A program made the translations under genes and the position numbers. This document shows, piece by piece, positions 3,453 through 54,264 of a DNA stretch of 64,000 nt. The number at the start of each line of letters is the position of its first letter. The stretch's first letter is position 1. This stretch comes from an uncultured Clostridia bacterium (GTDB lineage Bacteria; Bacillota; Clostridia; Oscillospirales; Ruminococcaceae). A model generated the notes under the pieces. The model was not told the origin of the DNA, ran no database searches, and saw nothing but the letters and a program-made list of their open reading frames with translations. Where the stretch lies: contig CAMVNQ010000015.1 of the NCBI GenBank assembly GCA_947168885.1, forward strand, positions 1 through 64,000, given 5' to 3'.

Positions 3453-3464
3453 ACGGAGGTGCTT

Positions 3465-3926
3465 ATGAAAACTTGCTGTTTTACCGGACATCGGATAATT
3501 AAAATAACCCCTGAACTTGTTCAGAGGCTGAAAGATACTATAATAAAGCTGATTGAGCAGGGCGTGACTGACTTCTACAACGGCGGCGCTATCGGTTTTG
3601 ACATGCTATGCGCCGAAACAGTTATAGCGCTGAAAGCTGAGCACAGCGATATAAAGCTACATATGCTCCTGCCGTGTCCGCCAGAAGAACATGCCAAAAG
3701 GTGGAATAAGGTTCAGATCGCGAAATACAATGAAATCTTGCAAGTGGCGGACAGCGTGACCGTTCTTTCTGAGCACTACACCGAAGAATGTATGAAACGA
3801 CGCAATGAGTGGCTTGTCGAGCTTGCGGACTGTTGTATCTGTTACTGCAATAATCCGAGAAGCGGGACGGGGCAGACTGTGCGTATGGCACGTGAGAAGG
3901 GGATAGATGTTATAAATCTATGTTAG
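3465..3926 (+). CDS. SLOG-family protein (YpsA/DUF1273-like)
   Basis: A 153-residue Rossmann-like protein: N-terminal CCFTGHRIIKITPEL, the GGAIGFDML loop (about 42-50), LPCPPEEH and a C-terminal NNPRSGTGQTVRMA phosphate-binding segment. SLOG proteins bind nucleotides or their derivatives and are often tied to conflict systems. ATG 3465 follows GGAGG. A close paralogue of nearly the same length lies at 36858-37325 in element B, again divergent from an XRE gene, so the pair is a recurring module of these elements. The exact ligand is unknown. Confidence 0.8.
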   Translation: MKTCCFTGHRIIKITPELVQRLKDTIIKLIEQGVTDFYNGGAIGFDMLCAETVIALKAEHSDIKLHMLLPCPPEEHAKRWNKVQIAKYNEILQVADSVTVLSEHYTEECMKRRNEWLVELADCCICYCNNPRSGTGQTVRMAREKGIDVINLC

Positions 3927-3971
3927 GTGGGTGGATTTTGGCACAATTGGCTAAATCTGAACCTGAAATGC

Positions 3972-4000
3972 TTGCAAAATTTGTTATAATATGGTATAAT
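3972..4000 (+). promoter_or_regulatory. Promoter of mcrBC
   Basis: TTGCAA (3972-3977) and TATAAT (3995-4000) are separated by 17 bases; GGAGG and the mcrB start follow within 31 bases. Confidence 0.7.
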
Positions 4001-4030
4001 ATAATGGATTATAAGATTTTGGAGGACATT

Positions 4031-6877
4031 ATGATTAATAAGGATAAACTAAAATCTATACTGGATGGTTATATAGCGTACTTTCCTAAAGCATGGGAAA
4101 AAGGCGAAATGGAAAAATGGCAGGCTATAAAATGTTTTCAGGATAACTGGGATATTGATGCTGAGAATTTCGAAGTAATGTTTGCTAATGCAACACATCA
4201 CGCGGCATTCTTATTATCCGCAATGAACTTTTATCCGAGAAAAATGATCTTAAACTTTGCTAAGGCAGATGCTGAAGCTACGCGTTCTATGTTTCGCAAA
4301 CTGTATGATGAGAGTCTACCATTAAAAGACAGGGTAAATGCGTTTCAAACAGAGTCGGAAGCATTGAGAGCAAAATATGATGATGATGGAACATGGAAAA
4401 ATCATTATCAGAAAACCAATGCAATAAGTACATACCTATGGCTTAAATATCCGGACAAGTATTATATATACAAGTACGAGCTTGCTCACGCAGCTGCTTT
4501 GGAGTTGTCGTCAGATCATCAGCCCAAAGCCAATGGCTCTGCTGAAAGCATGATTGCTGGTTTTAACCTGTACGACGATATATGTGAAGTCGTAAAAGCG
4601 GATACTCGAATAAGAGATATGATAAATAGGAATAAAACCGATTCCTGTTATGACGATCCTGAAATGAAAACAGCCACTATTGATGTGGTGTTCTACTTAA
4701 AACGGTTTATACTTGATGAAAAAGAGAAGGCAGACGGGTTTAGTTGGTTCCCCTCTCATGAAGAGTATGATCCGGAACTCTCCGTTGATGACTGGCTGGA
4801 GCTGTTCAAGGACAAATCGGTACTCACTGACGACAGCTTTACTATTCTTTCTCGTATGCTTGAAATGGGCGGTGCAGCTACTTGTAAGGAATTATCTGAT
4901 AAATATGGCAAATCCCCCAATTATTATAACAGTGGTTCAACTAGTCTTGCGAAAAGAGTACATGATAAAACAAACTGCCCGATAATGCCGCGTGATGAAG
5001 ATAATGCTCGTTGGTGGCCCATTTTATATGTGGGAAGGCATCAGGCTTCCGATAAGCCGGGCGAATATGTCTGGAAAATGAGAGAGGAGTTGAAAGAGGC
5101 GTTGGAAACTATAGATACTAATGTGGTAAATACATGGCTACTAAATTGGAATCCTTCAAATCAAGACTGGAAGTGGGAGGAACAGGAGGATGAGTACGGT
5201 TATAAAAATACTGTGAAAACGGTAAAAAGTGGTGGTACAGTGTTCTTTTGCTGGAAATGCATGAGCAAACAGATAAAAACCGGTGACCGTATCTTTATGG
5301 TTAAGCTTGGCAATCCTCCTAGGGGTATTTTTGCTACAGGATATGCAGCAAGCGATACATACGACAGCACATATACAGATGATAATGGAAAAGAAGCAAC
5401 TGAAAGAGTTGTTGATATTTGCATAACCGGTTTTTTGGATTATCATACAGATAAATTGATTTCACAAGATATACTGAAAAGTAAATTCCCAGATCAGCAA
5501 TGGAGCCCACAAGGTTCCGGAATATCTATAAAACCGGAGGCCGCACGGTGGTTGATTGAAAAATGGAACAACTTTAATGATGATACCAATGATGTGGCAA
5601 CGGATGATGTTTCAAGCTTTCATTCTGATGCTCGACATAAGCAGTATTTTATCCCTATTACAGAAGCCTTAATTCAACTCGGTGGATCGGCTAAAAGGAC
5701 AGCTGTACACAAGAAAGTAGCGGAGATATGTGGCATAACCGATGAAGAGTTAAGCGTAAAAAATAAATCAAACCAAAGTGTTGTAAAAAATGATATTGAT
5801 TGGGCAAGAAATTATTTAAACTATGAAGGATTTATAGATAGTAACGCCCCGAACGGAATATGGGCATTATCTGATATTGGCAAAAAATATGAAATGACAG
5901 AAGAGCTTGCCGAAAAGATAATTGTAAAATGGGTAAAAATAACGACCGCACGCAGAAAGAATGATCCAGAGCCTGTTATTGATCTGACACCATACTATAA
6001 ATTAAGGAAAACCAAATATACTAAGCAAGACTTCATTAATGATGTATATATGATTCCCGAAAGATACGACGAGCTGAAAGCGCTTCTTATAAACAAGCAG
6101 AACATTATTCTGCAAGGCGCTCCCGGTGTTGGTAAGACATACTCTGCCGAAAGGCTCGCATACTCGATAATGGGCGAAAAGGACGACAGCCGCATTGAAT
6201 TTATCCAGTTCCACCAGAACTACTCTTATGAAGATTTCATCATGGGGTATCGCCCGAATGAAAAAGGCGGGTTTGATCTGAAAGAGGGTGTTTTCTACCG
6301 GTTCTGTGAAAAAGCAAGAAACGATCCGGATCACAGAAAGCATTTCTTCATAATAGATGAGATCAACCGCGGTAATCTTAGCAAGATATTTGGCGAGTTG
6401 CTCATGCTCATTGAAAAGGATTATCGCAAGGAAAGCGCTACGCTTGCGTACAGAGATGAGAAGTTCACGGTTCCGGATAATCTCTATATCATAGGTATGA
6501 TGAATACTGCTGACCGTAGCCTCGCACTGATAGATTATGCTCTCCGCCGTCGTTTCAGTTTCTTTGAAATGGAACCCGGCTTTGATTCGGACGGCTTCAG
6601 GAAGTATGCGGCAGGGCTTAATAACCCGAAGGTCGATGAACTTATCAAGAAGATTGTTGAACTGAACAAAGCAATTACCGATGATAAATCGCTTGGCAAG
6701 GGATTCAGAATAGGTCACAGTTATTTCTGCGGCAGGAGTGCCGAAAACTGTACTGATGAATGGCTGCGTTCTGTTGTAAAGTATGATATTATACCGACCT
6801 TGGAAGAATACTGGTTTGATGATATGGACAAGGTATCGGATTGGGAAAACAAGTTGAATGGTGCGCTGAATGACTAA
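4031..6877 (+). CDS. mcrB: McrB-like GTPase with modified-base sensor domains
   Basis: A 948-residue subunit of a type IV restriction system. The C-terminal AAA+ motor has Walker A GAPGVGKTYS (about 694-703), the FHQNYSYEDFIMGYRP motif, Walker B FIIDEINRG (about 772) and MMNTADRSLALIDYALRRRF (about 823-842). Ahead of it lie a winged-helix, Mrr_N-like region (about 537-620), an EVE/PUA-like region (about 363-516) likely to read modified bases, another winged helix (about 257-317) and an N-terminal helical domain. ATG 4031 follows GGAGG. It overlaps mcrC by 8 bases. Domain calls outside the motor are by pattern only. Confidence 0.9.
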   Translation: MINKDKLKSILDGYIAYFPKAWEKGEMEKWQAIKCFQDNWDIDAENFEVMFANATHHAAFLLSAMNFYPRKMILNFAKADAEATRSMFRKLYDESLPLKDRVNAFQTESEALRAKYDDDGTWKNHYQKTNAISTYLWLKYPDKYYIYKYELAHAAALELSSDHQPKANGSAESMIAGFNLYDDICEVVKADTRIRDMINRNKTDSCYDDPEMKTATIDVVFYLKRFILDEKEKADGFSWFPSHEEYDPELSVDDWLELFKDKSVLTDDSFTILSRMLEMGGAATCKELSDKYGKSPNYYNSGSTSLAKRVHDKTNCPIMPRDEDNARWWPILYVGRHQASDKPGEYVWKMREELKEALETIDTNVVNTWLLNWNPSNQDWKWEEQEDEYGYKNTVKTVKSGGTVFFCWKCMSKQIKTGDRIFMVKLGNPPRGIFATGYAASDTYDSTYTDDNGKEATERVVDICITGFLDYHTDKLISQDILKSKFPDQQWSPQGSGISIKPEAARWLIEKWNNFNDDTNDVATDDVSSFHSDARHKQYFIPITEALIQLGGSAKRTAVHKKVAEICGITDEELSVKNKSNQSVVKNDIDWARNYLNYEGFIDSNAPNGIWALSDIGKKYEMTEELAEKIIVKWVKITTARRKNDPEPVIDLTPYYKLRKTKYTKQDFINDVYMIPERYDELKALLINKQNIILQGAPGVGKTYSAERLAYSIMGEKDDSRIEFIQFHQNYSYEDFIMGYRPNEKGGFDLKEGVFYRFCEKARNDPDHRKHFFIIDEINRGNLSKIFGELLMLIEKDYRKESATLAYRDEKFTVPDNLYIIGMMNTADRSLALIDYALRRRFSFFEMEPGFDSDGFRKYAAGLNNPKVDELIKKIVELNKAITDDKSLGKGFRIGHSYFCGRSAENCTDEWLRSVVKYDIIPTLEEYWFDDMDKVSDWENKLNGALND

Positions 6878-7931
6878 TGACAAGGGTATTCTGATAAAGA
6901 ATATTTACTATATGCTATCTTATGCTTTTCAAGTGCTGAAGCAAAAGGATTACGAAGATGTGGCAGCAGAGGAGTTTGACGAGGTGTATAAGCTGTTTGC
7001 GGCTATACTTTGTAAAGGTGTACCGCGTCTGTTAAAGCAGGGCTTGCACAAAGAGTACATCACACATCATGATGATTTGGCATCAATGCGTGGGAAGTTG
7101 GACATCAACGGTACTATCATCAATAAAATGCAGCAGAAGCATCTTCTTGCCTGTGAGTACGACGAGCTTTCGGAGAATAACATCTACAATCAGATAATCA
7201 AGACTACGATGTACTGCCTTATAAGAGCCGACAAGGTTAAATCGGAACATAAAACAACTTTGAAGAAGCTGATCGCGGGTTTCGGAAATGTTGATATAAT
7301 ACCGAAAGATACGATAAAATGGAACACACTACATTATTATCGCAACAATCGCAATTATGAGATGCTTCTGAATATCTGCTATCTTGTGCTGAACGGTATG
7401 ATACAGACCACCGAAAAGGGCGAGTATAAGCTGATGTCGTTCTCCGATGAACAGATGCAGACCTTATATGAGAAGTTTATCCTTGAATACTACAAGCGGC
7501 ACTATAAGCACCTTGATCCGAAGGTTGTTACAATGGACTGGAATTACGCAGACGGCTCCGATGAGGAGATGATAAAGTTCCTGCCGAAGATGAAAACAGA
7601 CATTACCCTGCATAACAAAGAAACCGGAAAGACGCTGATCATTGACGCAAAGTATTATGGTAAGGTATTCTCGAAGAATTTTGATAAGCAAACCTTTCAT
7701 TCCGGCAATATGTATCAGATATTTACGTATGTCAAGAATATGGACAAGGATAATACCGGAGATGTTGCGGGATTGCTGCTTTATGCACGGACGCAGGAGG
7801 AAGATCTGCCAAAAGAACCGGTGTTTGCAAACTTCGGGAATAATAAGATCGGCGTGGGAACGCTTGATCTGAATTCAAACTTTGATAAAATAGCAGAAAA
7901 ACTAAATTGGATAGCTAATTGTAAGCTTTAA
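6870..7931 (+). CDS. mcrC: McrC endonuclease subunit
   Basis: A 353-residue partner of McrB. The PD-(D/E)xK nuclease core is TDITLHNK...LIIDAKYY (about residues 243-263), supplying Asp and the D-A-K triad. The N-terminal two thirds is the usual McrC helical and beta scaffold that docks on the McrB hexamer. Together they should cleave DNA carrying modified bases. The start overlaps mcrB by 8 bases. The gene is complete. Confidence 0.9.
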   Translation: MTNDKGILIKNIYYMLSYAFQVLKQKDYEDVAAEEFDEVYKLFAAILCKGVPRLLKQGLHKEYITHHDDLASMRGKLDINGTIINKMQQKHLLACEYDELSENNIYNQIIKTTMYCLIRADKVKSEHKTTLKKLIAGFGNVDIIPKDTIKWNTLHYYRNNRNYEMLLNICYLVLNGMIQTTEKGEYKLMSFSDEQMQTLYEKFILEYYKRHYKHLDPKVVTMDWNYADGSDEEMIKFLPKMKTDITLHNKETGKTLIIDAKYYGKVFSKNFDKQTFHSGNMYQIFTYVKNMDKDNTGDVAGLLLYARTQEEDLPKEPVFANFGNNKIGVGTLDLNSNFDKIAEKLNWIANCKL

Positions 7932-25941: not shown

Positions 25942-27162
25942 TCAGGACGCTGCGGGGAGAACTTCGGTCGTTTTCTTGCGAGTGAGCGGGAGTGCGTCGG
26001 CTACTGCCTGCATTGCCACAGCCTGTGCTGTCTGGAATGCGTGGCTGTACACCTGCAAAGTCGTCACCGGCGTCGAATGCCCTAAACAACTCTGAACGGT
26101 CTTTACGTCAATTCCCGCATTGATAAGCAGGCTCGCGTTCAAGTGCCGCATTGAGTGGCAGGATACATACCGCATACCTGTTCTCTTACAAAAGCTGACG
26201 AAATAGTTTCTCGGAGCCGAGCGGTGAAGCGGGTCGCCGTTCCATTTGGTGAAGATCCGGTCGTTATCCGTCCATTGATCGCCCGCCTGTTCACGCTGCT
26301 TTGCCTGTAAACTCCGCCATTCATTGAGGATGTCGATGACTTCCTGCGGGACTTTAAGGCTGCGGGCGCTCTGTGCGGTTTTCGGTGTTTCGGTGTAAAT
26401 TCCGCCCTTGTTCTTGTTATAAAGGCTCGTCCTGCATACCGATATGACGTTCGCGTCGAAGTTGACGTCCTTCCATTCCAATCCGAGAAGCTCTCCAAGA
26501 CGGAAGCCCGTATAGATCGCGAGGGTGAAGAAGCATACGAAGATGTAGTTGCTCTTGTCCTCTTTCTCGAACAGGTCGAATAACTGCTGCGTTTCTTCAA
26601 TGGTGTAGAATTCTTTTTCGGGTGATACCACTTTCGGAATAGTCACGTTTTTGCAGGGGTTATCCCGGATGACGTTCATCTTCACGGCGTAGCTGCAAAC
26701 CGTGGAAATAAAGGATTTGTACAGCTTTATTGTCTTTGTGGAGAGCTTTCCGTCGTGCTTGTCCTGTGTGTCGAAACGCTTGGTGTCGCATAAATTAACG
26801 ATGAATTTCTGAATGTCGCGTGTGGTGAGTTTATCCATTCTGATGTGTCCGAGAGCCTTGATGATTCTCGGTTTCATCGAGCGGTAACCGGTCACGGTGT
26901 TCGGCTTCAATGCAAGCTCCGCATATTCCGTGAACCACTGATCCATAAACTCCTCGAACTTGACGGACGAGGCTGCATAGCCGCTCATACACTGTTCCTC
27001 GAACAGCACCGCCTGACGCTGCAATTCTTTTTCGATCTGCTTTTTGGTCATACCCTTGTCGGGCTTCCAAGTAAGCGTGTGCATGATCTGCTTGCCGTGA
27101 ATGTCATAACCGCACGAAACTCTTATGCGATAAGCGTCGTTTCTTTTCTGAATAGTTGCCAT
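25942..27162 (-). CDS. Tyrosine integrase of element B
   Basis: A 406-residue phage-type integrase. The N-terminal arm-binding domain starts MATIQKRNDAYRIRVSCGYD, followed by a SAM-like core-binding domain (EEFMDQWFTEYAELALKPNT). The catalytic residues are Arg in TGFRLGELLGLEW, His and Arg in CHSMRHLNAS, His in LGHSTPVTT and nucleophile Tyr in LQVYSHA. It reads toward the tRNA fragment 100 bases away, the usual layout for tRNA-site integrases. It is complete and probably active. Confidence 0.93.
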   Translation of the reverse strand: MATIQKRNDAYRIRVSCGYDIHGKQIMHTLTWKPDKGMTKKQIEKELQRQAVLFEEQCMSGYAASSVKFEEFMDQWFTEYAELALKPNTVTGYRSMKPRIIKALGHIRMDKLTTRDIQKFIVNLCDTKRFDTQDKHDGKLSTKTIKLYKSFISTVCSYAVKMNVIRDNPCKNVTIPKVVSPEKEFYTIEETQQLFDLFEKEDKSNYIFVCFFTLAIYTGFRLGELLGLEWKDVNFDANVISVCRTSLYNKNKGGIYTETPKTAQSARSLKVPQEVIDILNEWRSLQAKQREQAGDQWTDNDRIFTKWNGDPLHRSAPRNYFVSFCKRTGMRYVSCHSMRHLNASLLINAGIDVKTVQSCLGHSTPVTTLQVYSHAFQTAQAVAMQAVADALPLTRKKTTEVLPAAS

Positions 27163-27525: not shown

Positions 27526-28896
27526 TCATAGGCTTCGGTGCTTTTTGATAGTCTGAATAGGATGCAGGAACTTTTCAAGCTGCTCCCTGAGATTCAGACT
27601 TTCGATAAATTCCATTACCTTGTTGTACTTTTTCTTCCATTCCTCGATCTCGGCTTTCAAGCCCTCAACATTCAGACGATCACGAATGGATTTGAGCCGA
27701 CTTATCTCAGCTTTCTGTGCGTCATTGGCTTTCTGCAAATCCTCCTTTTCTTTGGCGAGCTGTTCCTTTTCCTGTTTCAATGTGGAGATTTGGTCTTTCA
27801 GCTTCTTCTCGTGGCTTTCTGCGGCAATTTGCTTTTTGGCGAGAGTGGAAACCTTGTCGTAATCATCGGCGGCGACGGTTATCTTCCCGCCGAACATCGT
27901 CTTTTTAGTTTCAATGTAGTCAATGTTCTTGATCTGCGTGGCTTTTTCGGCACTCTCGGCGATAAGCGCCTGCTGCTCCGCAAGCTGTGAAGCGGCTTCG
28001 GACAGTTCCTCGGTCTTGGCGGTCAATTCCTCCGTGACTTGTGCGATCTCGGACTGCTTGGCGCTGATCTGGGTGTCCATACTCTGGACATCCCTGCGTT
28101 TCTGCTGAAACTCCCCGTCAAGGCGGTCAATAGCAGCTTCCGCGCTTTCTATCAGTTCTTCGCGCTGGTGCAGCACATATTCTGCACTGTGAGCCTTACT
28201 TTCAAGAGTTTTCAGCTCCTTCTGCCGCTACTGTTTCTTGTAATCAAGGACGGAAAGATGCTCGTTGTGTGTTCCGAGCTGCTCCCACTCAATGCCGCGG
28301 GTGAGCATAACCTCGGAAAGAGCCTGTTTCTCGCGTTCTATCCACTTCTTGGTGTTGGTTTCAAGCTTGCCCTCGCCCCGAAAGCCCTGCTGTTCGAGAG
28401 CCTTTGACAGCGAGTTCCGTGTGGATAATCCCCGCTTCTGCCCGGTGGCGAACGGCACAAAGTCGATGTGAACGTGTGGGGTAGCTTCATCAAGGTGTAT
28501 GACTGCGTTGAATACCCGGATGTTCGGATTACGCTTGATGAAGCCCTCCGTGAATTCTTTCAGTATTTCTGTGGTGAGCTTGGCTTCGTCCGAGCCTACC
28601 GGTGTGTCGTCCATATTCCCGACTTGGAAGATGACCTCGTAGAACTCCTTTTCCTGCCGTCCGTGTCTGATGTGCTCACGATAATCGTGTATCTCCCTGT
28701 CCCTGCGGGTCTGACGGACGTTGTACTCTTTCAGAGCGTCGTCGAACAGCTCGTGATACACCGCCCGGATGTCATCGCATACGATAGTGATGTTGTCGTT
28801 AACGCGGGTGCGGTCAACATTCTCGGCGATGAACTTACGGTTGTTGTGATTGACATCACCTTTGTCGATCTGACCGCTAATCGTTCTTTTTATCAT
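27526..28896 (-). pseudogene. MobV/Pre-type relaxase interrupted by an in-frame TAG
   Basis: The N-terminal 222 residues form a MobV relaxase: NHNNRKFIAENVDRTR, YEVIFQVGNMDD and the metal-binding HLDEATPHVHIDFVPF. After YKKQ an in-frame TAG (28228-28230) stops translation. The same frame continues RQKELKTLESKAHSAEYV into a 230-residue coiled coil ending near 27526. A single CAG to TAG change explains it. The catalytic domain would still be made. It starts 13 bases after the DUF3987 gene ends. Confidence 0.8.
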
Positions 28897-32644: not shown

Positions 32645-35461
32645 TTACTTCTTTCTCTTCTTCAGAACAAGCGCCGCGCCTGCTGTAAGAGCGCATACCG
32701 CGAGAAGCCCGAAGCCTGCGGAAACGCCCGTGTGCGGGTTGCCGTCATCGACCGCGTTATCCACGCTGTGATCGTCGTCGGCATCATCGCTGTCGTCGTC
32801 GCTTATGGTGCCGTCGGTATCTTCCTCGTCGTCGTCATCGTCGCTGTCGTCGGTCAGCTCGTCGAAATCGTCGCCCGTATCGGTGTCGGTATCTTCATCG
32901 TCGTCCGTTTCCCCAACAGATGTGTCCGCCGCTGCCGGAGCGTCCTCAAATATCAGGAAATAGCAGGAGAAGCTGTCTGTGTAGAATGTCGCTATACCTG
33001 TTTCGGGATCAAACTCGCACTTGATGATCTCGACAGTGCCGTCGTCCTTGATATGTCCGATATAGAATGTACGCTGAGTGTCGGGATCGCTGTTTATGAA
33101 CTTTTCGGGGACCTTGAAGCCGACCTCGACCTTGCCGTTGACTTCGTGTATCTGCACTGGAGCTTTTGAGCCGACCTTCTTGAACAGGTTCATATCCATG
33201 TACATCGCGATCTCGCCGCCCTCATCTATCTTCGCGAGAGCTTCCTCAGCCTTCTGCTGCTCGGCTTTGGTGGGTTTCTTTTCCTCTACTTCGAGATATA
33301 CCTGAATGTTCTCGCCCTTTGCCATAGCGTCACGGTCTGCGTCCGTAAGAACAGCCTTGCTGAGTTCGTCGTTGCTGCTTTCGAGGGAAGCGCCGTTGTC
33401 GTTCTTCTTTTCGTCGGTAGTGTTATCAAGCTTGCCTGTATTTGTTGTTGTGGTCGTTGTCGTTGGGGTATAGCTCGGAATAACAGGTGTGTAACCGCCG
33501 CCGCCCTGTCCGCCGCCGGATGACTTGTCCTTGAAGTTAGCCGTCACGGTAACAGCCTTTGCGGGCATTGTGAATGTCGTTGTGGCAGCCGTTGAGCCGT
33601 TAAGTCCTTCAACGTCGCTCGTTGTCCAGTTTACAAATTCTTTGCCGTCGGGAATAGTCGCGGTTATGGTGACTGTTGCACCCGCTTCGGCAGTCGCCTT
33701 GTCGGAAGTACCGCCTACGACTGTGACAGAATATGTCTCTGCGGGCTTCGCTTTTACGGTGACCGTTAATGCAACAGCGGTCGGATGTTTATAGTTGCCG
33801 GTCGTTTCGGTATAGCTTGCCGGGAATGTATGTGTTCCGGCTGTTCCTACGCTTGTTGTCGGGGAATCCCAAGTCCAGCCTGTCGGGAGCGCTACATCAG
33901 CAAGAGTCTGTCCTTCTGTCGCGGTAAGCCCTGTTGGAGTTGTCGGGTCGGTGGGGTTGATTGTGATAGCCACGGTTTTTGTTGTTTCGGCATAAGTGTC
34001 CGTTGCCGACGCGGTCACGGTAACAGTAGCGCTGCCTACTTTAAGGATTGTAAGCGCGCCGCTCGTTGCATTTATTGTGACTACATCATCACCGGCTGTA
34101 ACTGCATAGCTCAAAGTTCCGTCGCCGGTAGTAAGAGTAGCACTTACAGCTTTTCCTGTGTCGCCGTATGTAGCGATCACATCGGCGGCTGTGATGGTCT
34201 GTGTTGCTTTGTCGCTGATCGTAACGGTAATGGGAGTTGCGGCAAGAGCATTATAGTTATCGTCCTCCGCGATAGTTACGTTTACGGTCACTGTGCCTGT
34301 GGTCGAGCCGGAGGTCAGAACGCTGCCGTTCAGTGTGCAGCCGTTCGCATTGCCGTCGATTGCATAGGAAACTGCGCCCGTCGCACCGTTCTTTGTTACA
34401 TTAGCCGACAGATCAACGGTACTGCCTTTTGTTACGCTTGCTGTGCCTGTTACAGTTGCAGGGTTTGCCGCCTTGTCGACAGTAACAGTCACGTCCACGT
34501 TTGAAGCAGAGCTGTGGTTGTCATCTCCGGCAAAGTTTGCCTTGAAGGTGTTGTTGCCCACACTGCCGACGCTTTGTGTGCTGTCTGTCCAAGTCCAACC
34601 GGTGGGCAGCACAACGTCAGACAGCGTCTGCCCGTATGTTGCGTTCAGACCTGTCGGAGCTGTGGGATCAATTTTTGCAACGGTAAATGCCTTGACCGCA
34701 GTATAGGTGTTGCTGCCGCTGGTCAGCGTGACACTGGCGTAGTAATAGCCTGCGCCGGTTGGAGCGCCTGTTTGGACTGTTCCGCCCGTGGTTGCGCCTT
34801 GCGTATCTACCTTGTAATAGGCAACATCGCCCACCGTGTCGCCGGTAACGGCTGGGATATTGTTTGTGACTGTCGCGCTATAAGCAGTCGTGCCATCATA
34901 TGTACCGCCCGCCGCAGCAATGGTCAGGGTCGCCGGTGTTGTATCATAGCTGTCTGGGCAGCCCGCCGTACACGTCGCCGTTATAGTCGCGCCTGTTGCG
35001 GAATATGTGAAACTGTGGGTGTGGGCAGACGCTTCATGCACAGCAAATGTTACGTTGGAACCGTTGAGTGATTCCACAGATATGCCGTCGGAATTGTCAG
35101 TTACTGACCATAAGCCTCCTGTATAACCAAAAAGATTTTCTTGGGCACCCTTAAAAACAGTACCATCGTTGCTTTTTAAGAGGTAGTAATCACCATTCTC
35201 TGATTCAGTAATAGTCATCGAATCAATGATATTACCTCTTACCAATGTCCATGGCTTAAGATTTGTATTGAGAAGAGACCCACCCCCCAATTGATACCCT
35301 GTAGTCGAATTGATGGTATCGCCCAGATGAAGTACATCTCCCTCTTGCAGAATTGTAAATTCTGTCGGTGTCGCATACGTCGTCAGGCTCATTCCCACCA
35401 TGCACGATATTATCATGCAGAATGACAGGAACACGCTTAAAATTTGTTTTGTCCTTTTCAT
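32645..35461 (-). CDS. Large sortase-anchored surface protein with Ig-like and InlB-type repeats
   Basis: A 938-residue exported protein. It has a signal peptide (MKRTKQILSVFLSFCMIISC onward), MBG/YDG-like and Ig-like repeats (ATYGQTLSDVVLPTGWTW and ATEGQTLADVALPTGWTWDS are two copies), an InlB/Flg_new-like repeat (EFVNWTTSD...FTMPAKAVTVTANF), a Gly and Thr linker, a conserved distal domain and a long Asp-rich stretch. The end is NPHTG (about 908-912), a hydrophobic helix and KKRKK, a sortase signal. It probably acts in adhesion. Upstream lies an invertible segment whose promoter at present points away. Confidence 0.9.
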   Translation of the reverse strand: MKRTKQILSVFLSFCMIISCMVGMSLTTYATPTEFTILQEGDVLHLGDTINSTTGYQLGGGSLLNTNLKPWTLVRGNIIDSMTITESENGDYYLLKSNDGTVFKGAQENLFGYTGGLWSVTDNSDGISVESLNGSNVTFAVHEASAHTHSFTYSATGATITATCTAGCPDSYDTTPATLTIAAAGGTYDGTTAYSATVTNNIPAVTGDTVGDVAYYKVDTQGATTGGTVQTGAPTGAGYYYASVTLTSGSNTYTAVKAFTVAKIDPTAPTGLNATYGQTLSDVVLPTGWTWTDSTQSVGSVGNNTFKANFAGDDNHSSASNVDVTVTVDKAANPATVTGTASVTKGSTVDLSANVTKNGATGAVSYAIDGNANGCTLNGSVLTSGSTTGTVTVNVTIAEDDNYNALAATPITVTISDKATQTITAADVIATYGDTGKAVSATLTTGDGTLSYAVTAGDDVVTINATSGALTILKVGSATVTVTASATDTYAETTKTVAITINPTDPTTPTGLTATEGQTLADVALPTGWTWDSPTTSVGTAGTHTFPASYTETTGNYKHPTAVALTVTVKAKPAETYSVTVVGGTSDKATAEAGATVTITATIPDGKEFVNWTTSDVEGLNGSTAATTTFTMPAKAVTVTANFKDKSSGGGQGGGGYTPVIPSYTPTTTTTTTNTGKLDNTTDEKKNDNGASLESSNDELSKAVLTDADRDAMAKGENIQVYLEVEEKKPTKAEQQKAEEALAKIDEGGEIAMYMDMNLFKKVGSKAPVQIHEVNGKVEVGFKVPEKFINSDPDTQRTFYIGHIKDDGTVEIIKCEFDPETGIATFYTDSFSCYFLIFEDAPAAADTSVGETDDDEDTDTDTGDDFDELTDDSDDDDDEEDTDGTISDDDSDDADDDHSVDNAVDDGNPHTGVSAGFGLLAVCALTAGAALVLKKRKK

Positions 35462-35681
35462 TTTTGTTATCCTTTCATTTCATTATTTCCCCGAAGGGAT
35501 AGTTTTAGCGCAAAAGCCTTTATGTCCACAAATGATTGATAACCAAGCTGAAAATGGGTATAATACCGATGTAGACAGTGGGTTTCGCAAAATAGAACAT
35601 TTCACGAAAAAACGCTCCGAAACGCCGTAAACACGGCACTTTATAAAGCCGTACTGACGGCAATATTACGAACATCTGACG

Positions 35682-36755
35682 TTACGCGACAAGGCTCAGC
35701 CGTGACATAAACTCCCGTTTGCGGTCAATGGACGGGTGAACGTAGCGGTTAAGCGTGATCTCGACCGAGCTGTGACCGAGTATCTCGGAAAGCGCCTTGA
35801 CATCAAATCCGAGCGCGATACAGTTTGTAGCGAAAGCGTGCCTCAGGCTGTGAAAGTGAACTGACGGTAATTTTCCGTTTTTGAGAAGTGTGGCAAAGCG
35901 GTATTGCAGGGTTCGGCATTCCATCGGCATACGCTTGCCGGACATAACATACATATCATCGGCGCTTCTGTGCTGTTCAAGCAGCGGGAGAAGACAGTCC
36001 GGTATCGGAATATCACGCACGGAGCTTGCGCTTTTCGGCTCGGTTATCACGATTTTCGTCCTTTTTGCGCTGTTTCCGGTCTGTATGCGCTGTAACGTGC
36101 GGCGAACGTGTATTGTCTTGCTGTCAAGGTCAATGTCGCCCCATTTCAAGGCGCATAGCTCCCCGATACGCATACCAGTGAACAGCGACAGAACAGCACC
36201 AAAGTGCTTTATATCGTTTTCTGCGGTCGCAAGGCTCACAAGTCGATGCTGATCGTGCTCTGAAAGTACAGCAACATCGGTTTTGGCTGTTTTAGGCATT
36301 TTGAAGCTGTCAAGCGGGTTTCTGATGTTATGCGTCCGCACGGCAAAACGGTAAATTCCTTTCAGCAGCACCACAATATCTGCGATATACCGCGCCGACA
36401 TGCCGATTTTCCGCTTCTTCCCGATAAAAGCATAAACATCATCAGCGGTAAGCAGGCAGCAGCACTTGTCCCCGAACGCCGGAATTATATGTTTTTCGGC
36501 TTTCATTCGGTAGTTGGCAAGTGTCGATTCCTTTAGCTGCGGCTTTACCGTGTCAAGATATTCAAGCGTGATCTCCTTTACCGTCATTTCCGTTATTGAA
36601 TACTCGAGTTTGTCCAAAGCCGACATCTTACTTTTAATTTCTTCCGGCGTTTTTCCGTAAACTGAGCGATACTTCCGCTTTCCGTCGCTGTCTTTGCCAA
36701 AAGAAATACGCGCTTCATAGCGCCCGTCTTTACGTTTATATAAATTTATCGACAT
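35682..36755 (-). CDS. Tyrosine recombinase (inversion enzyme)
   Basis: A 357-residue integrase-family recombinase with N-terminal MSINLYKRKDGRYEARISFG, a core-binding domain, and catalytic Arg in TGMRIGELCALKW, His and Arg in HFHSLRHAFAT, His in LGHSSVEIT and nucleophile Tyr in LNRYVH. GGAGG lies 5 bases before ATG. It is distinct from the element integrase at 25942. Its position inside perfect inverted repeats makes it the likely invertase of this segment. Overlapping divergent promoters probably serve it and the outward promoter. Confidence 0.9.
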   Translation of the reverse strand: MSINLYKRKDGRYEARISFGKDSDGKRKYRSVYGKTPEEIKSKMSALDKLEYSITEMTVKEITLEYLDTVKPQLKESTLANYRMKAEKHIIPAFGDKCCCLLTADDVYAFIGKKRKIGMSARYIADIVVLLKGIYRFAVRTHNIRNPLDSFKMPKTAKTDVAVLSEHDQHRLVSLATAENDIKHFGAVLSLFTGMRIGELCALKWGDIDLDSKTIHVRRTLQRIQTGNSAKRTKIVITEPKSASSVRDIPIPDCLLPLLEQHRSADDMYVMSGKRMPMECRTLQYRFATLLKNGKLPSVHFHSLRHAFATNCIALGFDVKALSEILGHSSVEITLNRYVHPSIDRKREFMSRLSLVA

Positions 36756-36771
36756 ATTTCCTCCAAAAACA

Positions 36772-36800
36772 TTGACTTTTGCACCATAAAATAGTATAAT
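36772..36800 (+). promoter_or_regulatory. Outward consensus promoter inside the invertible segment
   Basis: TTGACT (36772-36777) and TATAAT (36795-36800) are 17 bases apart and read right, antisense into the 3' end of the SLOG gene. After inversion the -10 would map to 35637-35642 reading left, giving a leader of about 170 bases to the surface-protein start at 35461. Confidence 0.8.
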
Positions 36801-36857
36801 AATATCAACAAATAAGGCAGAAAGCCGTTTCGTGAAATGTTCTATTTTGCGAAAAAA

Positions 36858-37325
36858 CTACCCGGAAAACAGGTTTATAACATCAATGCCTTTTTGTTCC
36901 GCAATACGCACGGTCTGTCCCGTTCCGCTTCTCGGATTATTGCAGTAGCAGATACAGCAGTCCGCAAGCTCGACAAGCCGTTCGTTGCGTCGTTTCATAC
37001 ATTCTTTGGTGTAGTGCTTGGACAGCACGATCACGCTGTCTGCCGCTTGCAGTATCTCGTTGTATCGTGCGATCTGAGCCTTATTCCACCTTTTGACATG
37101 CTCCTTCGGTGGACATGGCAGAAGCAGATTCAGTTTTATGTCGCTGTATTCGGCTTTCAGCGCTATGACAGTTTCGGCACAGAGCATATCAAAACCGATA
37201 GCTCCGCCGTTGTAGAAGTCAGTTACGCCGCACTCAATCATATTTATAATAGTATCCCGTAGCCTCTGAACAAGTTCAGGGGTTATTTTTATTATCCGGT
37301 GACCGGTAAAACAGCAGGTTTTCAT
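36858..37325 (-). CDS. SLOG-family protein, paralogue of the one at 3465
   Basis: A 155-residue protein nearly identical in layout to the element A copy: CCFTGHRIIKITPELVQRLR, NGGAIGFDML, LLPCPPKEH and NNPRSGTGQTVRIA. Its stop lies only 3 bases from the right inverted repeat, so the switch segment abuts but does not cut the gene. It is divergent from an XRE regulator as in element A. The antisense reading of the invertible promoter could reduce its expression in the present orientation. Confidence 0.82.
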   Translation of the reverse strand: MKTCCFTGHRIIKITPELVQRLRDTIINMIECGVTDFYNGGAIGFDMLCAETVIALKAEYSDIKLNLLLPCPPKEHVKRWNKAQIARYNEILQAADSVIVLSKHYTKECMKRRNERLVELADCCICYCNNPRSGTGQTVRIAEQKGIDVINLFSG

Positions 37326-37347
37326 ATATCTCACCCTTTTAAGTCAT

Positions 37348-37440
37348 AATAATACAATATTATATTGTACTATTATAGCATAAAACTCTATAAAATACAA
37401 TAATAACTTGTATAATTATTGTATTAAGGGGTTGAGTTTT
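37348..37440. promoter_or_regulatory. Operator region between SLOG and XRE genes of element B
   Basis: An imperfect palindrome TACAATATTATATTGTA (about 37351-37367) and a second dyad TACAATAATA...TATAATTATTGTA (about 37396-37425) flank the start region. The layout matches 3347-3452 in element A, with a different operator sequence. Confidence 0.55.
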
Positions 37441-37758
37441 ATGAACAGGATAAAAGAATTGAGAGAAAGCAAGGGTATGACGCAGGTGCGACTCAGTATC
37501 GAGCTCGAAGTGTCACAGGAGACCGTTAGCGCATACGAAAAGGGAAAGCACTATCCAAGCGTGGATGTACTTATGAAGCTGTCTGAAATTTTTGATGCGA
37601 GTATCGACTACATTTTAGGCTTATCAGATGTGAGGAAGCTCCCGTCGACCGACTATTCGCCGGATGAGATAAATCTTCTTGCCGTTTATCGCTCGCTTCC
37701 GTCAAAGGAGAAGGCTATGGCGCAGGCGTATATGCAAGGTTTGAATGATAATAAATAA
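37441..37758 (+). CDS. XRE-family HTH regulator of element B
   Basis: A 105-residue repressor-like protein. HTH: MTQVRLSIELEVSQETVSAY (about 13-32), then GKHYPSVDVLMKLSEIFDAS and YILGLSD, the hallmark of Cro/CI phage-type regulators. ATG 37441 follows AAGGGG. It is longer than and not closely similar to the XRE protein at 3096 although both face a SLOG gene. It probably governs element B lysogeny-like control. Confidence 0.87.
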   Translation: MNRIKELRESKGMTQVRLSIELEVSQETVSAYEKGKHYPSVDVLMKLSEIFDASIDYILGLSDVRKLPSTDYSPDEINLLAVYRSLPSKEKAMAQAYMQGLNDNK

Positions 37759-50328: not shown

Positions 50329-50667
50329 ATGAGAAAGTATAAACAGGTCAAAGAGAAGAAAGTCACATACGACCTTGACGAATGGGAAGAGGTTGAGCAC
50401 CGCGCGGAGAAATTGAAGCTGAAAACCGGAACGTATATTAAGCGCATTTCGGTGGACGGTAAGATCATCGCCTGCGACGTTGATACCCTGCTCAAATTGA
50501 TAAACGAGATAAACGCGATAGGCCGCAACATCAATATGCTGACCCGCAAGGCATTGGAGATCAACAGTATCTATGCCGAGGATATGGAAAAGATACAGGA
50601 GGGCTTCGAGAGCTTATGCCGTACTGTAAACTCAAATCTGTTCATACCACAGTTCAGAATACTTTGA
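50329..50667 (+). CDS. MobC-like relaxosome protein
   Basis: A 112-residue protein. A ribbon-helix-helix-like N-terminus (VTYDLDEWEEVEHRAEKLKL) is followed by LKTGTYIKRISVDGKI and INEINAIGRNINMLTRKALE, the MobC signature. It assists strand opening at oriT. It overlaps the relaxase gene by 52 bases. GAGGAGG precedes ATG. Confidence 0.87.
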   Translation: MRKYKQVKEKKVTYDLDEWEEVEHRAEKLKLKTGTYIKRISVDGKIIACDVDTLLKLINEINAIGRNINMLTRKALEINSIYAEDMEKIQEGFESLCRTVNSNLFIPQFRIL

Positions 50668-52418
50668 ACTACATACTGAATCCGGAGAAAACCGATGAGC
50701 TGCTGTATGCGGACTCCATTAACTGTTTCACGGACGCTCCGTGCGCGTATGATAACATGAAAATGATTTATGAGCATTACAGCGGACGCAGCTTCACCGC
50801 ACCCATGCCAAAAAATGGAAATTGCCCGATAAAGGCTATTCACCTCATTCAGTCGTTCTCGCCGGAGGACGGTGTAACGCCCGAACAGGTACATGAGATA
50901 GGAATGGAACTTGTGCGGGAGCTATACGGCGATAAGGTTCAGGCAGTTGTGACGACACACGTTGACAAGGAACACATACATAACCATGTGTTGGTGTGTT
51001 CCTACACTACCGACGGCAGAAAGCTGTATAACACCATATCGGAGGTTAAACGCTTACGCGATCTGTCGGACTATTTATGTGAGGTGCGCGGTATTCGCAA
51101 TGTCATGGAAGAACGGCAGGGCAAGAGTTACAGCATATCCTATTCGGAGTGGCAGCATCGCAAGCGCGGCACTTCATGGAAAGCACACATTTCCGCTTAC
51201 ATCGACAGCCTGATACCGGTAGCAAAAAATCTCGAACACCTGTTGCAGATTATGGAAGCTCACGGCTACACAGTCAAGCGTGGAATGTACATCTCCGTGA
51301 GAGCACCTGACCAAAAGAGAGCGATCCGGCTGATAACGCTCGGTACTAACTACAAGGAATCCGCACTTTCCGAACGCATACAGGAGTACCTTGACGCTCA
51401 GCCGAAACCGAGAACTCTCACTGAGATCTTCGAGCTGATACAACGGGAGTTCACGCGGGAAACGCGGAACATCTGTTTCGCCGCCGGTGTAAAAGATACG
51501 ACAGAGCTTCTCTGCAAGCAGCTTGCACTTATCAATAATGAACATATTTCCAGTGTGGGCGAAGCCGAGCAGCTTTTGGAAAATGCTCAAAAGCGTATCA
51601 CGGAGCTTGAATCCGCCATAACGGATTTGAGTGCGGAAGCCCAGCACAAGCATATCGTGGCTGCCGCCGCCGAGAGATATTTCGGCAAGCACAAGTTCGG
51701 GGAATACCCTAACGCCCAGCGAAAGAGCGACAAGCTGATACTTGCGCGGGCGGGTATTACCGCGATAACCGATGTTTTGGGATATGCTGATGATGTCGCC
51801 GCTGATAACGAACGGCTCGCGGAAATGCAGACGGAGCTTGAAGAACAGAAAAAGCGTGAAGCGGTTCTTCGTGGGATTATCAGGACTTACGGTGACGGGG
51901 ACGACTATATTACCAAGCTCGTCAAGAGAACCCGTGAAAAGCTCGATGAGCAAGAGCAGGCTCGGGTCAGGGAACTTCAAGCGAAGAAGTACAGCGTCTA
52001 TACTCCGACCGATACAAAGAACATTGCTTTTGATCGGGCGAATATAGATTATTACAATAAAAGCTTCGAGCAGAGCTTGTTTGAGGTCAATGCTGATCCC
52101 GACAGCATTTATGAAACGCTGAACGAGATATATCAGACGCACGACTTGTTTGACGGTGATGTTATCTGTATTGACGGCAAGGCTCATTATATTGATACTG
52201 ACTGTTTCCGCGAGGTTGGTGACTTTATGCAGTCACGCGCCGAGATTGAACGTCAGCGTCAGGAGGAGCTTGCAAAACAGGAGCAGGAGCGCATTGTCGC
52301 CGAAGAACGCCGCCGTCAGCAGGAAGAAGAACAGTGCAGACTGGAAGAACAGAAAAAGAAGAAGGAAGAGGAAACAACTAAATCAGTGAAGCCGAAGAGA
52401 AATAGAGGCTTGCACTGA
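50616..52418 (+). CDS. MobP-type relaxase
   Basis: A 600-residue mobilisation nuclease. The three-His metal motif is THVDKEHIHNHVLV (about residues 114-127), preceded by the AIHLIQSFSPEDGVTPEQ region. The Tyr nucleophile is expected in the first 30 residues (PYCKLKS, NYILNPEK). A coiled-coil middle and a Glu/Arg/Gln-rich C-terminal tail follow. It nicks oriT and leads the strand out. ATG 50616 lies inside mobC, so translation may be coupled. Confidence 0.9.
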   Translation: MPYCKLKSVHTTVQNTLNYILNPEKTDELLYADSINCFTDAPCAYDNMKMIYEHYSGRSFTAPMPKNGNCPIKAIHLIQSFSPEDGVTPEQVHEIGMELVRELYGDKVQAVVTTHVDKEHIHNHVLVCSYTTDGRKLYNTISEVKRLRDLSDYLCEVRGIRNVMEERQGKSYSISYSEWQHRKRGTSWKAHISAYIDSLIPVAKNLEHLLQIMEAHGYTVKRGMYISVRAPDQKRAIRLITLGTNYKESALSERIQEYLDAQPKPRTLTEIFELIQREFTRETRNICFAAGVKDTTELLCKQLALINNEHISSVGEAEQLLENAQKRITELESAITDLSAEAQHKHIVAAAAERYFGKHKFGEYPNAQRKSDKLILARAGITAITDVLGYADDVAADNERLAEMQTELEEQKKREAVLRGIIRTYGDGDDYITKLVKRTREKLDEQEQARVRELQAKKYSVYTPTDTKNIAFDRANIDYYNKSFEQSLFEVNADPDSIYETLNEIYQTHDLFDGDVICIDGKAHYIDTDCFREVGDFMQSRAEIERQRQEELAKQEQERIVAEERRRQQEEEQCRLEEQKKKKEEETTKSVKPKRNRGLH

Positions 52419-52436
52419 TAGAGAACAGGAGGTTCA

Positions 52437-52616
52437 ATGAGAAGATATGAAATCAGGACGAGCACCGTAGCAGAGACTACGGACGAACAGATCAGGGCTC
52501 TTGCAGCCAGCTTCTACCCGACTATCCGGGCGTACTATGACACCGAGGAAGGGAAGAAGATGTTCGAGGAATTCATGGACGCGCAGAATGTGGGGGATAA
52601 CAAACCTGCGGCGTAA
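52437..52616 (+). CDS. Small hypothetical mobilisation-region protein
   Basis: A 59-residue protein, MRRYEIRTSTVAETTDEQIR to QNVGDNKPAA, with GGAGG before ATG, 18 bases after the relaxase. Not recognised; its position suggests co-transfer functions. Confidence 0.6.
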   Translation: MRRYEIRTSTVAETTDEQIRALAASFYPTIRAYYDTEEGKKMFEEFMDAQNVGDNKPAA

Positions 52617-52624
52617 AAAAACAG

Positions 52625-52659
52625 TCTGCCCCCGCCTCATAACGAGGCGGGGAAGCAGA
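52625..52659 (+). terminator. Terminator of the mobilisation operon
   Basis: CCCCGCCTC pairs with GAGGCGGGG around ATAAC, with outer TCTGC/GCAGA pairing. Confidence 0.8.
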
Positions 52660-52794
52660 TCGTTAAAAGTATCACATATACTATTATAATATAGTTATAG
52701 AAAAAATATCAGAAATCACGCTTTAAACTATTGAAATTCAGTCCAAAGCGTGGTATAATAAGGACAATGGAGTATTCAAGGAGGATAGAAAGCT

Positions 52795-54264
52795 ATGAAA
52801 GCAGTGATTTATGCAAGATATTCGTGCGACAACCAGCGCGAGGAGAGCATTGAAGGTCAGCTCCGCGAGTGTCGGGACTTCGCCGCAAAGAAGGATATGA
52901 CCGTGGTCGGAACCTACATCGACCGCGCAATGTCAGCCAAGACCGACAACCGCCCGGAATTCCAGCGCATGATCGCGGAAAGCGGCAAGAATATGTTTGA
53001 TACGGTCATAGTCTGGAAGCTTGACCGTTTTGCCCGTAACCGCTATGACAGCGCCCGGTACAAGATGCTGCTACGTAAAAACGGTGTCAAGGTCGTATCT
53101 GCAACGGAGGTCATATCCGAGGGAGCAGAGGGTATTATCCTCGAATCCGTGCTTGAAGGATACGCGGAATACTACTCCGCGGAGCTTTCCGAGAAAGTAA
53201 TACGCGGAATGACCGAAAATGCCCTTAAAAAGCAGTATAACGGGGGAAACGTGCCGACGGGTTACTACATTGACGAGCAGAAGCACTATCAGATCGACAA
53301 GCTCGTCGCGCCGTTCGTCCGTGAAGCTTTCCAAATGTACATCAACAACCGTCCGATCAAGGACATTGTGGCGTATCTGAACGAAAATCACGTCACGACC
53401 TGCAAGAATAAGCCGTTTACAAAGACTTCGGTCTCGGCTATGTTGCAGGTTCGCAAATATATGGGGGAGTATCGTTACCGGGATGTGGTATTTGAGGACG
53501 GAATCCCCGCGATAATAACGAAGGAGATGTTTAACATGGCACAGCAGAGGCTCGAAAAGAACAGATATGCCCCCGCGTGTATGAAAGCCGACATTACCTA
53601 CCTGCTTACCACCAAGCTGATCTGCGGTCATTGCGGTGCATTTATGGTAGGGGAGAGCGGAACAGGTACAGGTAACAAGAAGTATCACTATTATAAATGT
53701 GTATCCGCGAAGAAGAAAAAGGGCTGCACCAAGCGGACAGTACGCAAAGAATTCATCGAAAACCTCGTGGTTGACAGCGTTGTGAGAAATTTGTTTAATC
53801 CCGACACAATTGATAGGATTGCGGACGCGGTCATGGCGGAGCAGGATAAGGAAAGTACCGTTATCCCGCTGCTGGAGCGGGAATTGGCGGAAACACAGAA
53901 AACGCTCGACAATGTTATGACAGCTATCGAGCAGGGAATCATCACGGAAACCACCAAGCGCCGCATGAGGGAGCTTGAAGCCAAGAAGTCCGAGATCGAG
54001 ACGAAAATAATCCGTGAGGAGATCAAGGAGCAGCGTCTGACGAAGGAACAGATTGTGGCATGGCTCACCAAGCTCACTAAACTTGACCTCGCGGACGAGG
54101 GCAACAAGCTCAGGATCATCGAGACCTATGTGAACTCGGTGTATGCCTACGATGATAAAATTGTCGTCAATTTCAACTGCAGGGAGGAGCCGGAAACGGT
54201 TCCTCTCCCGCTCAAAATAGTGACTGATGTTTCGGATTTGTTGACGGTCGGGGAGCCATCATAA
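52795..54264 (+). CDS. Large serine recombinase of element C
   Basis: A 489-residue recombinase. Resolvase domain AVIYARYSCDNQREESIEGQ (catalytic Ser about 10) and VWKLDRFARNRYDSA; recombinase domain; zinc ribbon CGHCGAFMVG (about 281-290) with later Cys residues; coiled coil; C-terminal DUF4368-like tail. It resembles TnpX-type integrases of clostridial mobile elements. GGAGG precedes ATG. Confidence 0.92.
   Translation: MKAVIYARYSCDNQREESIEGQLRECRDFAAKKDMTVVGTYIDRAMSAKTDNRPEFQRMIAESGKNMFDTVIVWKLDRFARNRYDSARYKMLLRKNGVKVVSATEVISEGAEGIILESVLEGYAEYYSAELSEKVIRGMTENALKKQYNGGNVPTGYYIDEQKHYQIDKLVAPFVREAFQMYINNRPIKDIVAYLNENHVTTCKNKPFTKTSVSAMLQVRKYMGEYRYRDVVFEDGIPAIITKEMFNMAQQRLEKNRYAPACMKADITYLLTTKLICGHCGAFMVGESGTGTGNKKYHYYKCVSAKKKKGCTKRTVRKEFIENLVVDSVVRNLFNPDTIDRIADAVMAEQDKESTVIPLLERELAETQKTLDNVMTAIEQGIITETTKRRMRELEAKKSEIETKIIREEIKEQRLTKEQIVAWLTKLTKLDLADEGNKLRIIETYVNSVYAYDDKIVVNFNCREEPETVPLPLKIVTDVSDLLTVGEPS

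Follow-up and report, generated by a model that had tools for sequence, protein, structure and literature searches.

Organization of the locus

The DNA analyzed here is a stretch of 64,000 nucleotides (the window) from an uncultured Clostridia bacterium of the family Ruminococcaceae. Within it, two 27-bp inverted repeats, at 35583-35609 on the plus strand and 36828-36854 on the minus strand, are complementary at 27 of 27 positions and are separated by 1218 nt, which gives a segment of 1272 bp with the sites included. No other match to this 27-mer was present in the 64-kb window at up to 3 mismatches, and none appeared in 100 dinucleotide shuffles at the same threshold. Each site is composed of 11-nt arms around the spacer AGAAC (35594-35598 in the left site, and 36839-36843 in the right site, which is the same as the left site, inverted). 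Such imperfect inverted arms with a short spacer common to partner sites, the organization of a core recombination site, were observed both at this locus and in the family described below. The genome contains a single cassette of this kind. A third copy of the 27-mer was detected at the edge of contig C10 (G000:C10:26-52; L001, L234). This contig begins 25 nt ahead of the solitary site, so a partner site may be missing, and these 25 nt had no second occurrence anywhere in the same genome. Another solitary site without an adjoining recombinase was found in a genome of the same genus (L230:1848-1874, G033:C80); both this site and the C10 copy lie directly 3' of a SLOG gene.

The sites enclose a gene for a 357-aa tyrosine recombinase (35682-36755, minus strand), which is the proposed invertase. 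It matched PF00589 (E 3.9e-25) and PF14659, and it has all six catalytic residues, placed by motif at R196, K241, H302, R305, H328 and Y338. The PF00589 match together with this R-K-H-R-H/W-Y set places the protein in the tyrosine recombinase superfamily. A Hin-type serine invertase, characterized by a Resolvase domain, was ruled out for this gene: only tyrosine-recombinase domains were found. The protein also matched PHROG 1 (E 1.4e-70), and its best matches among solved structures were XerA (5hxy) and the Int protein of 6emy-6en2. When the segment was inverted in silico, the coordinates of the recombinase gene mapped onto themselves. The first-pass annotation of this DNA had described perfect 27-bp repeats around a single, exactly centred tyrosine recombinase, and both parts of this description held.

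To the left of the cassette, the gene proposed to be controlled (32645-35461, minus strand) encodes a 938-aa NPxTG-type surface protein with a PF18998 match; its score against the NCBIfam model Rumino_NPXTG (NF033846) was just below the cut-off (21.3 versus 23.5 bits). Read by eye, the sequence has the signal peptide, NPxTG motif, hydrophobic stretch and positive tail of a sortase substrate, with NPHTG as the C-terminal sorting signal, and two sortase matches were present in the genome. In a sister genome (L034/L103, 3' side), the surface protein has shrunk to 136 aa but still begins with a signal-like stretch and has a sorting signal, NPVTG. To the right, a SLOG (YpsA-like) gene (36858-37334, minus strand, PF06908) ends 4 nt from the right site and is at present co-directional with the recombinase; a SLOG neighbour was also found at L034/L103, L035/L104 and L044. 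Divergent from the SLOG gene is a gene for a Cro/C1-type HTH regulator (37408-37758, plus strand, PF01381), homologs of which recur near related cassettes or SLOG genes. Elsewhere in the window (3459-7931), a gene closely related to this SLOG gene (87.5%) directly precedes McrB-like (with Mrr_N) and McrC-like genes in a possible defence operon, which has no recombination sites.

Two predicted promoters were found as consensus matches, each with 11 of 12 positions. P_int (TTGACT-17-TATAAT, 36772-36800, plus strand) points out of the segment on the right, antisense into the SLOG gene beyond the right site. After inversion in silico, it is placed at 35665-35637 on the minus strand, with a start near 35630, about 169-170 nt before the ATG of the surface-protein gene at 35461, and faces this gene. 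The locus has in this respect the arrangement of an inverton, i.e., inverted repeats flanking a promoter that is able to face a gene in one orientation. An outward promoter with these boxes, running antisense into the SLOG gene and coming to lie about 170 bases from the surface-protein gene upon inversion, had been proposed earlier, and the coordinates agree (about 169 nt in silico). P_ext (TTGATA-17-TATAAT, 35536-35564, plus strand) is fixed outside the left site and directed into the cassette, where it is at present antisense to the recombinase and would be sense after inversion. Judged by its consensus match, this predicted promoter would drive the recombinase only after inversion. Taken singly, promoter-type matches are no rarity (35400-37450 has 7, compared with 4.0 ± 2.3 in shuffles), and the weight of P_int comes from its conservation in relatives and not from a lone consensus match.

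Directly 3' of the recombinase gene, a hairpin (-12.8 kcal/mol) followed by U6 was found at 35607-35652 on the minus strand, a possible terminator shielding the surface-protein gene. The stretch 35583-35690 folds at z -2.64, in a larger arrangement that takes in the palindrome of the site itself. Neither P_ext nor this hairpin with its U-run was part of the first-pass annotation. The latter had suggested that a weak promoter or read-through from the recombinase could give some expression of the surface protein in the present state. No minus-strand candidate promoter was detected immediately ahead of the surface-protein gene in the present orientation; read-through may still occur, although it is less likely because the hairpin and U-run follow the recombinase.

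The window also contains an integrase (25942-27162) and a Mob_Pre relaxase (28228-28896). Further downstream (50616-54264), a MobA/VirD2-type relaxase is followed by a large serine recombinase, and this region is probably a second integrative mobilizable element. The earlier placement of the cassette on a mobile element may be correct, with the integrase, relaxases and serine recombinase nearby.

Distribution of related recombinases

With a cut-off of E <= 1e-60, the share of genomes with a relative of the recombinase was 16 of 71 in the genus, 76 of 396 in a family-level sample, 52 of 394 in the order and 7 of 398 in a phylum-wide draw; these samples overlap and include the genome containing the window. 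The cassette is a member of a broad family and not a rarity. The earlier suggestion that such switches are uncommon fails in this lineage, given the number of family genomes carrying a relative, and an enclosed invertase is the known arrangement of Hin. A scan of one genome per species gave 12 encoding loci. Repeats flank 10 of these, and the remaining two, L044 and L045, were cut or incomplete. Some relatives had several cassettes per genome.

Flanks were analyzed for genus- and family-level loci, and relatives at the order and phylum levels were counted only. The loci examined comprised 80 chosen places, mostly higher-scoring ones, plus L038-L041, L043 and the window. Filtering by repeat and position reduced 95 recombinase hits to 81 cassettes, a set that includes near-duplicates such as the window and L103; the 14 dropped hits were second recombinases, were cut, or were without clear repeats. 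The six catalytic positions were invariant in all 81 aligned frames, two of which (L160 and L163) had internal stops.

Relatives were also present in plasmid and phage records. Plasmid pRUMAL02 of Ruminococcus albus 7 (DSM 20455) encodes one at 47%, and a plasmid of Vescimonas fastidiosa MM35 encodes one at 33%, located between 29 bp inverted repeats. On pRUMAL02, recombinase genes are found at 196064-197143 and 197936-199021, and the sites of the latter match perfectly over 20 bp. In megaplasmids of Enterococcus raffinosus and E. gilvus (L222-L227), relatives of 33-35% lie between inverted repeats of 18-26 bp; of the two annotated records, one has secA2 behind the cassette and the other has WxL surface-protein genes there. 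Two Bacteroidales plasmid records also contained relatives, as did seven unannotated "Bacteriophage sp." records from human faeces in a phage collection (33-40%). A protein search of IMG/VR for relatives and a search for the exact 27-mer gave no matches, and no plasmid DNA related to 35300-37350 was found.

Conserved sites and locus-specific spacers

Paired inverted repeats were present in the expected place in 77 of 83 full-length relatives with flanks, and the other 6 had no repeat at the threshold used. When flanks were swapped between loci, repeats were seen in 68 of 1636 cases, a control that is inflated by related loci. The aligned sites have the form TTTCGCAAAAT-N5-ATTTTGCGAAA. Arms are conserved between loci, and the 5-nt spacer carries almost no information across loci (0.03-0.36 bit). 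The spacer was the same in both partner sites in 77 of 79 pairs and equal between loci in 29 of 3081 comparisons; these repeats were found by exact seeds, and 2 of 81 repeat pairs fell outside the site consensus. Because the first repeats came from exact seeds, sites were also located independently by their arms. In the 50 of 83 loci with both sites strong, spacers were identical within the locus in 50 of 50 cases and between loci in 20 of 2450 ordered pairs, and the arms of partner sites differed at 2.3 of 22 nt.

Strand exchange by tyrosine recombinases requires matching spacers. Spacers that are identical within a locus and different between loci are the pattern expected of such an exchange. 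Among 13 genomes holding more than one cassette, 49 of 57 within-genome pairs had different spacers, and some paralogous cassettes had both spacer and cargo in common. In one genome, two cassettes (L151 and L153) have the same spacer and are 92.6% alike, and no similarity of their flanks was detectable on either side; the cassette can therefore be copied to a new place.

Promoters in the family

An outward promoter corresponding to P_int, with at least 10 of 12 sigma-70 consensus positions between the 5' site and the recombinase start, was present in 71 of 81 cassettes, versus 3.6% of shuffles. An outward promoter beside the recombinase start is therefore a recurring part of the cassette. At the same threshold, the 3' inner end gave 2 of 81 and 0 of 81, and the opposite strand gave 11 of 81 (shuffles 4%). 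On this weak signal, the idea that the cassette itself contains a strong promoter in sense to the recombinase was rejected. Inward promoters outside the 3' site occurred in 13 of 80 cassettes (shuffles 1.8%), the window's clade among them, and at loci with varied cargo (the window, L103, L104, L069 and L105) promoters of the P_ext type matched at 11 of 12 positions. With 13 of 80, P_ext was rejected as a family-wide feature. A family-wide terminator after the recombinase was rejected as well (27 of 81 cassettes versus 26.7% of shuffles).

Orientation of the cassettes

Both orientations, as expected of invertons, were observed at homologous loci of the family. In L167 and L174, two loci of one genome, the cassette (83%) is inverted between flanks of 81% and 92%. 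The cassette of L109 and L110 is inverted relative to that of L136 (79-80%) between homologous flanks of 73.5-80%. A third case involves the second cassette of R. albus 7 pRUMAL02, which is inverted relative to G377:C32 with flanks of 91.8% and 93.3%. Here the cassette, at 73%, is more diverged than its flanks, which makes replacement instead of inversion possible; this second R. albus 7 cassette lacks a clear repeat pair and has weak sites sharing CAACTTA. Inversion with one homologous flank was seen for L151/L152 (91.8% over 3252 bp) and L112/L113 (93.3% over 965 bp). Similar cargo was also found on either side of the cassette, e.g., LytTR response regulators (OFF side in L125, ON side in L177) and helicases (L107 versus L142 and L159).

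Several pairs with conserved flanks (e.g., L170/L171 and L125/L126) had the same orientation. For the window's locus, the only near-identical copy (G030, 98%, the sister genome) has the same orientation, and no flips were seen at the E. raffinosus secA2 locus in the 4 covering records of 5 matching ones. By simple ORF calls, the neighbour gene in the 81 loci was on the side away from P_int only in 40, on the side faced by P_int only in 10, on both sides in 11 and on neither in 16, with 4 unjudged. Accordingly, 51 of 81 loci (40 + 11) have a 3' neighbour that is directed away from the cassette and lies within 300 nt of it. The 40 to 10 excess of cargo on the 3' side may mean that flipping is rare or biased. 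Contig breaks, a potential mark of mixed orientation, were enriched on the 5' side only (10 of 75 cases, 2.5 expected; 2 of 75 on the 3' side). Repeated flanks possibly confound these figures, which were therefore given no weight.

Proposed mechanism and alternative explanations

Taken together, these data make it very likely that the locus is a self-contained phase-variation switch (inverton), whose recombinase would invert its own segment and whose P_int would direct its output to the surface-protein gene. Locus-specific paired spacers, a conserved P_int and both orientations at related loci support real inversion in the family, and they favour the invertible promoter that had been read from the window at first; that the window's exact locus flips is what we infer from the family. 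The enclosed recombinase would bind both 27-bp sites and cut at the short identical spacer, and strand exchange would invert the 1272-bp segment with the recombinase gene included. The sequenced orientation would be OFF, with P_int directed away from the surface-protein gene and the terminator possibly shielding it; the inverted orientation would be ON, with P_int about 170 nt upstream of this gene. Transcription of the recombinase gene probably starts outside the segment in both states, as read-through from the SLOG gene in the OFF state and from P_ext in the ON state. Both the ON/OFF expression and the outside feeding are what we infer from these features.

A switch that is now locked or decayed, such that the family flips and the window's copy is fixed in the OFF orientation, appears unlikely. 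The sister genome does have the same orientation, as well as a surface protein down to 136 aa, the present orientation is in 40 to 10 excess in the family, and the genus contains solitary sites without a recombinase (the C10 copy, at a contig edge, and that of G033:C80). However, the recombinase is intact with all catalytic residues, the sites are perfect over 27 nt, and both promoters match the consensus at 11 of 12 positions.

We also consider it quite unlikely that the surface protein is not the main target, i.e., that P_int yields an antisense RNA against the SLOG gene and the surface-protein gene is transcribed from an undetected promoter. P_int points into the SLOG gene just past the right site, and the SLOG neighbour is kept in L103, L104 and L044; yet P_int recurs in the wider family while neighbours change, outward-starting genes are common on the 3' side (51 of 81 loci, within 300 nt), and the minus strand just upstream of the surface-protein gene had no promoter candidate. 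A small transposable element, in which a recombinase gene between terminal inverted repeats moves rather than inverts, is very improbable: insertion-sequence shape and size, several cassettes per genome in some relatives, varied cargo and the similar L151/L153 cassettes in unrelated flanks would fit it, but most within-genome pairs (49 of 57) differ in the spacer, which the ends of a single transposon family would not do, the window's own genome has a single cassette, the outward promoter is conserved, and the cassette is found inverted between homologous flanks. Mobility and inversion are mutually compatible.

Relation to known systems

To our knowledge, known tyrosine-recombinase promoter switches keep the enzyme outside the flipping segment; in the FimB/FimE-fimS system, the recombinase genes are located outside the invertible segment. 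Phage and ICE integrases with PF14659 and PF00589 (PHROG 1) integrate or excise an element. They are sequence relatives of the cassette recombinase, which, unlike them, stands alone between inverted sites. Hin of Salmonella, with its H segment, is a serine recombinase, whereas the enzyme at the present locus is a tyrosine recombinase with R-K-H-R-H-Y. The two systems have in common that the invertible segment carries the gene of its own invertase as well as an outward promoter; PMC5903667 describes recombinases near the switch and occasionally within it, and names Hin. The Hin principle of an invertase inside its segment is known, and what is new here is its combination with a tyrosine recombinase and with spacers that mostly differ from locus to locus.

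In FimB/FimE-fimS, the RecV-dependent switches of C. difficile and the invertible promoters of Bacteroidales, as in the present family, a recombinase inverts a promoter between short repeats ahead of genes for surface or other functions. The C. difficile and Bacteroidales switches, too, differ in that the recombinase lies outside the segment, adjacent to it or elsewhere, according to PMC5903667 and PMC8748976; the latter places Bacteroidales invertible promoters immediately downstream of the invertase gene. In gut Clostridia, inverton group 139 has been tied to a nearby tyrosine-type recombinase (invertase group 35), and two examples switched orientation over culture passages, as described in PMC11892184, where einverted was used. 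Compared by description only, this group resembles our family in being a clostridial inverton with a tyrosine-type recombinase, and differs in the size of the two examples (~255 bp between outer ends) and in having the recombinase nearby. Among the matches listed in a literature search of titles and abstract openings, which covered few subscription papers, no report of the cassette family was found. Common inverton finders may skip repeats that are this far apart.

A broader reading, which we hold about as probable as its opposite, is that these cassettes are a hitherto undescribed family of self-driving, portable switches, widespread in Oscillospirales and relatives, in which the spacer would serve as an address that separates most cassettes of the same genome, and P_ext, in the window's clade, would feed the recombinase only when ON. 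The portable cassette has a size of ~1.2-1.4 kb and combines recombinase, promoter and sites as one unit. If this reading is true, its cargo would include dockerin and other secreted-looking proteins, helicases, a restriction methylase, response regulators, glycosyltransferases and a second recombinase, and feeding by P_ext only in the ON state would make the switch-back rate differ between states. Relatives of the switch stand before many different genes in many gut and rumen bacteria, and the diverse cargo suggests one switch design in gut and rumen Oscillospirales for surface, signalling and possibly defence functions. R. albus 7, a cultured type strain with a sequenced plasmid, has relatives, so that inversion, spacer specificity and state-dependent feedback are directly testable.

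Genes adjoining related cassettes

Cargo was named by Pfam for 10 proteins and, for the remaining ones, from ORF ends read by eye. The Pfam assignments were a helicase with HA domains (L107), LytTR response regulators (L125 and L177), glycosyltransferases (L147 and L144), tyrosine recombinases (L112 and L105), a dockerin protein (L175) and an Eco57I-type methylase (L104). The neighbour of L109, a large secreted-looking protein, had no Pfam match. In L105, L069, L112, L113, L116, L118, L119 and L121, a second tyrosine recombinase (~304-310 or 389 aa) adjoins the cassette, and the arrangement looks as if one switch controlled another recombinase. Tandem arrays of two cassettes, separated by a small gene and followed by a helicase, were found both in R. 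albus 7 pRUMAL02 (L221) and in G377:C32 (L145). In L143 (G207:C48), the inverted repeat extends outward to 181 nt and seems to cover, on either side, the beginning of one of two similar genes for secreted proteins; here, one promoter could alternate between the two genes.
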